A stretch of 38,723 bases of DNA from an uncultured Acidobacteriota bacterium. GTDB lineage: Bacteria > Acidobacteriota > Blastocatellia > RBC074. Below the pieces are notes generated by a model, which worked only from the letters and a program-made list of their open reading frames with translations, was not told the DNA's origin and searched no databases. A program made the translations under genes and the position numbers. This document shows positions 23,977 to 31,291 of this stretch, in pieces; the stretch's first letter is position 1, and each line of letters starts with the position of its first letter. The stretch covers positions 1 to 38,723 of the forward strand of contig CAIKMY010000266.1 of the NCBI GenBank assembly GCA_903828635.1. Reading direction: 5' to 3'.

Positions 23977-25302
23977 TTAGTCGGCACCGAGCCAGGCGTA
24001 TCGTGCCAGGAAGAGTGCGGCAAGGACGAAGACCAGCGGATGAATTTCGCGGCGCCTGCCGGCAAGCAGCTTGAGTGCCGGGTAGCAGATAAAACCGATC
24101 GCCAGCCCGTTGGCGATCGAGAAGGTGAGCGGCATGGCGATGATCGTCAGAAAGGCGGGGAGTGACTCTGTCAGGTCATCCCATTCGATCTTTCTGACGA
24201 CAGAAATCATCAGGGCGCCAACGATAATCAGCGCCGGGGCGGTGGCAATCGGGGGGATGGCACTGGCAAGCGGCGCAAAGAACGCCGCGAGCAGAAAGAG
24301 AATACCGACGACACAGGCAGTCAGCCCGGTGCGACCTCCCTCGCTGACGCCGGTGGCGCTCTCGATGTAGGTCACGACCGTCGAGGTGCCGAAAAGAGCG
24401 CCGACCGAAGTCGCCGCGGCATCGCAGAAGAGGGCGCGATTGATGCGTGGCATGTGCCCCTCGCGGTCGAGAAATCCTGCCTGCTGACCCAGCCCGACCA
24501 GCGATCCGATCGTATCGAAGAGATCAACGAAGAGGAAGACAAAGATCACCTCGAAGAGACCAAGCCTGAGCGCTCCGCGGATATCGAGTTGCCAGAAGGT
24601 CGAGCGCCAGTCAGGCATCTGCACCATGCCGGTGGGAGGGGGCGAGAGGTGAAGCAGGATCGCCGCTGCTGTCACCGCCAAGATACCGACGAGAAAAGCG
24701 GCTCTGACACCTCTGGCCATCAATCCCGCAATGAGCATCAGGCCACCAAGCGCCAGCAAGACCTCTTTTGACGCAACGTGGCCGATCGTCACCAGGGTTG
24801 CCGGTGAGGCAATGATCACTCCGGCATTCTTCAAACCGATGAAGGCGATGAAGAAGCCGATCCCTGCCCCGACTGAGATCTTGAGCGTCATCGGAATCGC
24901 GTCGACGATCAGCATGCGAATTCTGGCAAGTGTCAGCGCCATGAAGACGATCCCGGAAATGAAGACTGCCCCCAGCGCAACCCGCCAGTCGCAGCCCATC
25001 CCCTTGACTACTGTATAGGTGAAATAGGCATTGAGCCCCATGCCCGGCGCGAGGGCGAAGGGATAATTGGCCAGCAGCCCCATCAGCAGCGATCCGACCG
25101 CCGCCGCAAGACAGGTTGCAAGGAGGGCTCCGCCAAAAGGGACACCTGCTTCGGCAAGAATCGATGGATTGACGAAGATGATGTAGGCCATCGTCAGAAA
25201 GGTGGTCACGCCGGCGGAGAGCTCAGTGCGTACTGTGGTGCGATTGGCCGACAGTTTGAAGAGTGAGTCGAGGAGTTTGTAAGATTGCCGCCGGTTGATC
25301 AC
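23977..25302 (-). CDS. NCS2-family nucleobase permease, AzgA/PbuG-like
   Basis: A polytopic protein of 441 residues with 12-14 hydrophobic helices. The N-terminal signature AGVTTFLTMAYIIFVNPSIL and LAPGMGLNAYFTYTVVKGMG, and later GTSTVVTYIESATGVSEGGRTGLTA, are diagnostic of the AzgA branch of the nucleobase:cation symporters, which import adenine, guanine or hypoxanthine. I place the start at the GTG at 25302, which forms a GTGA overlap with the acetyltransferase stop; another in-frame GTG at 25314 gives four more residues. It is the last gene of the selenoprotein-GNAT-permease operon. The purine substrate is inferred from the family. Confidence 0.9.
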   Translation of the reverse strand: MINRRQSYKLLDSLFKLSANRTTVRTELSAGVTTFLTMAYIIFVNPSILAEAGVPFGGALLATCLAAAVGSLLMGLLANYPFALAPGMGLNAYFTYTVVKGMGCDWRVALGAVFISGIVFMALTLARIRMLIVDAIPMTLKISVGAGIGFFIAFIGLKNAGVIIASPATLVTIGHVASKEVLLALGGLMLIAGLMARGVRAAFLVGILAVTAAAILLHLSPPPTGMVQMPDWRSTFWQLDIRGALRLGLFEVIFVFLFVDLFDTIGSLVGLGQQAGFLDREGHMPRINRALFCDAAATSVGALFGTSTVVTYIESATGVSEGGRTGLTACVVGILFLLAAFFAPLASAIPPIATAPALIIVGALMISVVRKIEWDDLTESLPAFLTIIAMPLTFSIANGLAIGFICYPALKLLAGRRREIHPLVFVLAALFLARYAWLGAD

Positions 25303-25757
25303 GACTTCATCCACTCGAAGACTGAATAATGGTCACCATTCATCCCAAGGCAGGCATAGACCTGCTGCGCGCGGGTATTACGAAGATCGACATAGAGTCG
25401 TATTCCGCGGATGTGGGGATCAGACTCCGCCTGCTGGCGAAGGTAATGATAAAGTGCAGTAAAAACGCCTTGCCGACGCTCGGCCGGTGGCACATAGACG
25501 CTCTGAATCCACCAGACGGTGCCGTTTCGCCAGTCACTCCACTCGTAGGTGATCATCGTTGAGGCAATCACCCTCCCGTTCTTTTCGGCAACATAGTAAC
25601 AACCGAGTGAAGGCTTTTCAAAGACGGCGGCAACACCAAGAGAGCAGGTTTCGGGATCGAGAGTGACATCCTCGGTCTCGCGAGCCATCAGTAACTGGAA
25701 GTCAACGATGGTTGGCGCGTCCTCGGGAACAGCCGGACGGCAGATGATCGATGTCAT
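25299..25757 (-). CDS. GNAT family N-acetyltransferase
   Basis: A 152-residue single GNAT domain. IQSVYVPPAERRQGVFTALYHYL contains the acetyl-CoA binding motif A (RRQGVF), and LYVDLRNTRAQQVYACLGM is the usual motif B. It transfers an acetyl group to an amine on an unknown small molecule or protein. Its ATG overlaps the TGA stop of the selenoprotein gene (ATGA), and its own stop overlaps the permease start, so all three are translationally coupled. Confidence 0.88.
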   Translation of the reverse strand: MTSIICRPAVPEDAPTIVDFQLLMARETEDVTLDPETCSLGVAAVFEKPSLGCYYVAEKNGRVIASTMITYEWSDWRNGTVWWIQSVYVPPAERRQGVFTALYHYLRQQAESDPHIRGIRLYVDLRNTRAQQVYACLGMNGDHYSVFEWMKS

Positions 25758-26500
25758 ATTGCAGCTCCGAAATCTTCGGTTACCGGCAGATCATCGCGAT
25801 CGAGCAGCCGCAGGGCGGCAGCAATGACACGATGCTGGAGTGCCGGGTTGTCAGGTTCGCCGAGGGGATACCCCATCGGAAAGGGGACGAGGAGGGCCCG
25901 TGGCGGACGGATGACCTCAGCCACTTCGCGGAGAAGCGAGATTGAGACAGTGGGGATCCCCTCACGCTCGATCGCCGCCTGGACCAGACAGACCGTCTGG
26001 TTACACATTGGTCAGAGGGGAGTGAGGAAGACGGCCTCGACACCATCCTCGCGGAGCATTCTCGCGACTGTCGGAGCCGTGACATCAATCAATTTTCGCG
26101 GACCAACGATTGAGCCCATGAAGCTGAAATGGCGATGGTTGAGCGAGCCGATCACTCGACGAGCCTGCAGTTCGCGAAAGCGGTCGAGTGGAAAGGCAAG
26201 GTTGCGATCGGCGGCGACTCCCCGATGATCGAAAGCCTGGCTGCGATGCGACTCGATCAGAGAGGCGGTCTCGACATCACCGGGGATTTCACGAAACGAG
26301 GTATCCCCGAGTTTGATACGCTGGTCAAAGGGCTGCTGCCCGGGCGCGCAGAACCCTGCCGTCGTCACCAGCGCTACCCGTGAATCCGCGAGAGGTCGAC
26401 GCAACCGCGCGCACGGCGTGGGATCAATCCGATAGCGTGCGAATGGATAATTGTTCATGAAGAGCCTGACATGCAGACTCATTTCGTCGTAGCCGGCCAT
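25754..26500 (-). CDS. GrdB-family selenoprotein (glycine/sarcosine/betaine/proline reductase B-like), read through an in-frame UGA
   Basis: A single 248-residue gene that would be split in two by standard calling. The upstream half (from ATG 26500, with GGGAG 5 nt before it) reads SRVALVTTAGFCAPGQQPFD, LGDTSFREIPGD, ESHRSQAFDHRGVAADRNLAFPLDRF and LNHRHFSFMGSI, the pattern of GrdB-like proteins. After AVFLTPL comes TGA at 26012-26014 (residue 163), and the same frame continues PMCNQTVCLVQAAIEREGIPTV and PFPMGYPLGEPDNPALQHRV to the stop at 25754. Reading UGA as selenocysteine gives a U-P-M-C redox motif, where homologues carry Cys or Sec. A SECIS-like hairpin follows. Catalysis is unknown; true reductases work with partner subunits that are not seen here. 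selA, selB, selC and selD are not in the window. Confidence 0.88.
25983..26001 (-). promoter_or_regulatory. SECIS-like hairpin for selenocysteine insertion
   Basis: On the coding (minus) strand, a perfect 7-bp stem ACCAGAC/GTCTGGT encloses a five-base loop GGTCT. The loop starts 17 nt after the UGA. In E. coli fdhF the SelB-binding loop also presents GGUCU, about 18 nt after the UGA. Bacterial SECIS elements lie within the coding region just downstream of UGA, so position and loop both fit. The stem is an inference from sequence only. Confidence 0.75.
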
Positions 26501-26695
26501 AGTACTCCCGTTGCGATCAGAACGGTAATTGTAGCCGATTTGCCGATTGGCAACCATTGAAATTTGGAGAATGGACCGGGCAGTCAGCGAGCAACATCGA
26601 CGATCGAACCGGGCACCTGCTTGCATCGCCGCGAGGATAACAATAATCTGATAAACTGGTGTACGTGCCCGCGCGAATAAGAGAAATCACCTGAC
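26501..26695. other. Divergent intergenic region, selenoprotein operon and glycoside hydrolase
   Basis: About 195 bases between two divergent genes. A minus-strand frame extends upstream from 26500 to 26626, but the GGGAG site and protein start favour 26500. The stretch should carry both promoters; none is clear enough to mark. Confidence 0.4.
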
Positions 26696-30970: not shown

Positions 30971-31026
30971 AGACGAATTTTGTCAGACGCATTTTGTCAG
31001 ACGCATTTTGTCAGACGAATTCTGAA
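30971..31026. repeat. 14-bp tandem repeat, four copies
   Basis: Units agacgaattttgtc, agacgcattttgtc (twice) and a degenerate agacgaattctgaa stand immediately before the riboswitch. The TTGTCA junctions resemble -35 boxes, so copy number could affect transcription of the B12 operon. Confidence 0.9.
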
Positions 31027-31029
31027 TGC

Positions 31030-31220
31030 ATTGACAGGTGCCCGGCGAGGATAGACGTCGGGAGAATAGGGAAGCGGGTGTAACTCCCGCACGGTCACCG
31101 CCACTGTAAAGCCATTCGGGCTTCACCAAAAGCCATTGTGTCAAGCCATTGTGTCATGGACGCGAGAAGGCAGGGTGAAGGGCATTCCCGGCGAAGTCAG
31201 GAGACCTGCCTGTCAGCGAA
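31030..31220 (+). promoter_or_regulatory. Cobalamin (adenosylcobalamin-type) riboswitch
   Basis: The stretch carries conserved elements of the cobalamin riboswitch in order. A 5' strand starts at aggtgcccgg (about 31036), then the gggaatagggaag-like core (gggagaatagggaagcgggtg). The B12-box region follows with gcacggtcaccgccactgtaa at 31089-31109, and the 3' closing segment gcgaagtcaggagacctgcc ends near 31210. It precedes a complete btuF-btuC-btuD-btuB-like operon, the expected target; B12 binding would reduce expression. Edges are approximate. A 13-bp tandem duplication (31130-31155) lies in the variable arm. A weak CCGGG/CCCGG hairpin at 31259-31271 could be part of the expression platform. 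Confidence 0.9.
31130..31155 (+). repeat. 13-bp tandem duplication inside the riboswitch
   Basis: Two perfect copies of aagccattgtgtc lie between the B12 box and the 3' closing segment. This part of the aptamer is variable in length in nature, so function may be kept. A related aaagccatt occurs just upstream near 31108. Confidence 0.85.
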
Positions 31221-31291
31221 TCGACGACTCTTCGGATGAAAGAGAGCGGCGTGTCTTGCCGGGCGGCCCGGTTGTCAGATTTCCGGTTATT

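Follow-up and report, generated by a model that had tools for sequence, protein, structure and literature searches.

In the D-proline reductase of clostridia, the pyruvoyl group of PrdA is thought to bind D-proline, the selenolate of PrdB attacks, and a Cys residue of PrdB resolves the product (PMC3091704). PrdB of C. sticklandii carries its selenocysteine (Sec) at position 152 of 242 (PMC3091704). The other close described group is selenoprotein B of glycine, sarcosine and betaine reductase (GrdB, GrdF and GrdH; PF07355), with a full length of ~430 residues. The Sargasso Sea survey listed 42 genes for PrdB-type selenoproteins with a UxxC motif (PMC1088965), the GOS survey contained 235 Sec and 110 Cys forms of the family (PMC2398784), and such proteins also appear in current reviews (PMC13188914).

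Here, we describe a gene of this kind, a kind catalogued since 2005, from an uncultured Acidobacteriota bacterium. The window analyzed is the whole stretch of 38,723 nucleotides that carries it. The "Proline reductase PrdB" family of both surveys shares with the window gene its relation to pfam07355, the UxxC motif and the abundance of Sec forms in metagenomes, and the survey sequences are likely to belong to the same branch.

Gene structure and genomic context

The gene occupies a single minus-strand frame with only one internal TGA (in the motif LTPL-U-PMCNQ) and ends at a TGA stop at 25756-25754 (Table 1). The start ATG at 26500 is preceded by CGGGAG and aligns with the start in almost every homologue, the initial Met being nearly invariant in the alignment. 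Plain open reading frame (ORF) calling splits the gene and gives 26012-26626 and 25754-26008 separately. An earlier note on this DNA had joined the two frames across the TGA, and this was borne out by homologues that align over both halves.

Since starts and stops overlap, the selenoprotein, GNAT and permease genes appear to be co-transcribed. Much of the gene order of the window is retained in two relatives (L018 and L019). The operon with a GNAT and a purine permease, from which the earlier note had drawn a functional argument, is real as a linkage but carries little functional weight, as it is found only in the nearest relatives and the neighborhood of the PrdB-like gene varies by lineage. 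For this reason, we discarded gene neighborhood as a clue to function beyond the close relatives. Elsewhere in the window, a cobalamin riboswitch immediately precedes the gene of a periplasmic binding protein, and a TonB-dependent receptor follows; this is likely a B12 uptake cluster.

TABLE 1 Coordinates of the window features discussed in the text
Feature	Position	Strand	Basis
PrdB-like selenoprotein gene, 248 codons plus TGA stop	25754..26500	-	Frame, NCBIfam profile match, homologue alignment
UGA in frame at codon 163, predicted to encode selenocysteine (U in UPMC)	26012..26014	-	TGA in 79/80 located sites; column invariant, as is C166
SECIS-like hairpin, 7-bp stem ACCAGAC/GUCUGGU, loop GGUCU	25983..26001	-	Folding, covariation, synonymous-codon null
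GNAT acetyltransferase gene, start overlapping selenoprotein stop (ATGA)	25299..25757	-	PF00583 1.3e-13
Xanthine/uracil-type permease gene (PF00860), start overlapping GNAT gene	23977..25314	-	ORF list, domain search
Cobalamin riboswitch (RF00174)	31019..31227	+	107.8 bits
Periplasmic binding protein gene (PF01497)	from 31236
TonB-dependent receptor gene	from 34296

Conservation of the UGA codon

A homologue scan of one genome per species (84,980 species) provided 80 loci with relatives of the gene. The nearest ones, at 72% identity, come from Acidobacteria and Blastocatellia, and farther relatives were found in Poribacteria, Latescibacterota, Myxococcales and others; identity over the two halves ranged from 48 to 72%. 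Among the 80 sequences in which the Sec site was located (window included), 79 have TGA and one (L087) has TGC. One more locus, L064, was missed by the site motif and stands outside this count; it also shows TGA. In an alignment of 43 rows, in which C stands for UGA, neither the UGA residue nor Cys166 varies, which agrees with the redox motif proposed in the earlier note. Selection was compared on both sides of the codon with five near relatives, giving pN/pS values of 0.21 to 0.23 after the TGA and 0.27 to 0.32 upstream, to be read as ratios of raw proportions only because synonymous sites are near saturation. As judged from these sequences, constraint past the UGA is no weaker than before it and purifying selection continues.

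We also inspected nine distant homologues without UGA, of which five have Cys at the site, three Asp or Glu and one Ser. The expectation that homologues without selenium carry Cys therefore holds for five of the nine but not for the other four. Together with the 79 TGA and the single TGC, the five distant Cys forms give the pattern of a selenoprotein family, a conserved UGA aligned with Cys in some members. The loci in which Asp, Glu or Ser replaces Sec or Cys (L107, L117, L126 and L130) are PrdB-like, and their residues suggest a branch with other chemistry.

A SECIS-like hairpin downstream of the UGA

Bacterial SECIS elements are usually located just downstream of the UGA. In the window gene, a hairpin with a 7-bp stem is found there, its loop beginning 17 nucleotides past the UGA. 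Folded as a single sequence, the region is not unusually stable (z score of 0.20), and we therefore turned to covariation and a synonymous null. A scan with Rfam around the UGA scored no relevant family. Across 34 distinct sequences, 92.4% of the cells were paired compared to 16.8 to 44.1% in controls with the partner slid by one to three columns, the stem had 29 double-sided changes and the covariation score was 0.331 versus 0.138 in shuffles, while the perfect 7-bp stem was present in 63 of 79 sequences against a mean of 2.9 and a maximum of 9 after synonymous re-coding (each sequence with its own upstream codon usage, 300 trials); because the sequences share descent, these figures are not probabilities.

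Most UGA forms have all seven pairs, while the Cys, Asp, Glu and Ser forms of the phylum have three to six, and the stem is lost in the Cys form L087 (four of seven pairs). In paralogues with UPxVC spacing, the stem lies one codon out of register and scores five by the same pair count. Fold, covariation and the synonymous null together point to a putative SECIS hairpin directly 3' of the UGA.

Selenocysteine machinery and other selenoprotein genes in the genome

The draft genome (4.3 Mb in 482 contigs, 92% complete) contains a tRNA-Sec with anticodon TCA (UCA), a full-length SelA (556.9 bits) and a full SelD with a UGA within its N-terminal active-site motif. SelB was found as its first 107 residues only (160 bits), running off the end of contig C470, and its remaining part, including the C-terminal domain PF09107, was not found in this draft. 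Another candidate for SelB, C86, was rejected as it is EF-Tu. The search for selA, selB, selC and selD that the earlier note had proposed as a check was thus positive for all four, SelB as an N-terminal fragment, and agrees with the selenium use claimed for the organism. In a sample of the phylum, SelA was present in 37 of the 38 genomes with the UGA form compared to 93 of the 161 without it (Fisher P = 3e-7, with genomes that are not independent).

The SelD gene (L015, 240-1277) is itself a selenoprotein gene, with its in-frame UGA in the motif CAGUASK. The same genome has a second PrdB-like gene (L098, 1080-1805; G000:C356:1110-1769) with an in-frame TGA in the motif GGUPNVC. Just upstream of it (L098, 349-837) lies a peroxiredoxin-like gene with TGA at the position of the peroxidatic Cys (TPVU), likely a Sec-peroxiredoxin gene.

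Relationship to PrdB and GrdB

The best NCBIfam match of the window protein was PrdB (TIGR04483), with 131 bits and an E value of 4.7e-38 over most of the length, although this is under the equivalog cutoff of 300 bits, as is the score of the second PrdB-like gene (184.6 bits). PF07355 was matched with 26.7 bits (gathering cutoff of 22) at profile positions 212 to 345 of 347. The GrdB models TIGR01917 and TIGR01918 matched by their C-terminal half only, and both scores fell far short of the cutoffs (37.2 versus 602.2 bits and 43.5 versus 65.45 bits, respectively). By profile comparison, PrdB is a nearer relative of the protein than GrdB. The earlier note had described the protein as GrdB-like; it does match PF07355, but the closest named family is PrdB. 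With PrdB, the window protein shares a similar length, the UxxC motif and a Sec about two thirds along a chain of ~240 residues (163 of 248), and differs in its score, its gene neighbors and in that no PrdA was found. Compared to selenoprotein B, only the C-terminal part is matched, the N-terminal ~210 positions are missing and there is no GrdE partner.

Profile searches with PF09338 and TIGR04480 detected no relative of PrdA or GrdE in the window's genome (92% complete), and they can be considered to work since they found the partner in genome G132. In the phylum, a PrdA/GrdE-type partner is present in 1 of 199 genomes (G132), while the PrdB-like gene is present in 56. In G132, which belongs to the same class, two GrdE-type genes (L131 and L132, G132:C1) lie beside UGA-containing matches of GrdB/PrdB type (C1:13289-13903), so that, judging from its genes, a true glycine-reductase-like system exists within the phylum. 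For the window gene, the lack of GrdE and PrdA and the missed GrdB cutoffs support the earlier proposal of a role different from that of clostridial glycine reductase.

AlphaFold2 with the family alignment predicted a confident fold (pLDDT of 95.9 and pTM of 0.94) in which residue 163 lies between a strand (156 to 160) and a helix (164 to 179), a junction that is a common site for redox-active residues. Searches of the PDB by sequence and by fold gave no confident relative (best E value of 6e-3, TM score of about 0.3).

Interpretation and alternative explanations

The conserved UGA, the selection past it, the covarying hairpin and the Sec machinery argue for a selenoprotein rather than a pseudogene, as the earlier note had maintained, and we consider it nearly certain that this is a functional selenoprotein gene. 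A sequencing error, or a nonsense mutation that arose recently in a gene with an ancestral Cys, would also give the two fragments of standard ORF calling; yet the TGA is common to several phyla in independent assemblies, and a strongly constrained 3' part with no other break and a conserved hairpin makes this highly improbable. Least probable of all is a code change by which TGA would stand for an ordinary amino acid such as Trp: such a code would leave the frame open, but both the selenoprotein gene and the GNAT gene terminate at TGA, the replacement seen most often is Cys and never Trp, and the genome has SelA and a tRNA-Sec with anticodon TCA.

A third alternative concerns function, namely, that the protein serves as PrdB in a true D-proline reductase (or as a reductase subunit of GrdB type) and that the draft happens to lack its pyruvoyl partner. 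PrdB is indeed the best named family, and the Sec positions are comparable (152 of 242 in C. sticklandii, 163 of 248 here). We regard this as quite unlikely given a score of 131 bits against a cutoff of 300, neighbors that are a GNAT and a permease and no prd genes, and the absence of PrdA or GrdE from this draft genome and from all but one (G132) of the 199 of the phylum, 56 of which have a PrdB-like gene. With the partner absent, the PrdA/PrdB proline reductase reaction is not expected and the protein most likely works alone, although an unrelated partner protein may exist.

For the selenoprotein that we favor, SelB with Sec-tRNA(UCA) would decode the UGA at codon 163, aided by the downstream hairpin, yielding a single PrdB-like protein of 248 residues whose Sec-Pro-Met-Cys redox pair lies where a beta strand gives way to the N terminus of a helix. 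The selenolate would attack a reducible substrate (peroxide, disulfide or similar), Cys166 would resolve the product, forming a selenenyl sulfide, and the enzyme might be regenerated by a thiol donor, for example, thioredoxin. A peroxidase activity of GrdB was reportedly described by Grobe et al. in 2007 (cited in PMC3091704), which makes a stand-alone role in peroxide or disulfide reduction plausible. On balance, we lean toward a stand-alone selenol/thiol redox enzyme rather than a D-proline or glycine reductase.

Significance for the family

Automatic annotation would turn this gene into two fragments or a pseudogene, and both the selenoenzyme and the selenium use of the organism would be overlooked. 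The phylum-wide pattern weighs more than the single gene: with so many PrdB-like genes and a single partner (56 and 1 of 199 genomes), the name "proline reductase" is probably misleading. What our data suggest, and what seems to be less appreciated, is that this group lacks a pyruvoyl partner and hence probably contains no proline reductases. The PrdB-like selenoproteins with UxxC that occur in Acidobacteriota, Poribacteria and other groups may well be a distinct, partner-free family of selenoenzymes, mislabeled as "D-proline reductase," with a chemistry of their own (probably peroxide or disulfide reducing) and a fold without a confident solved counterpart.
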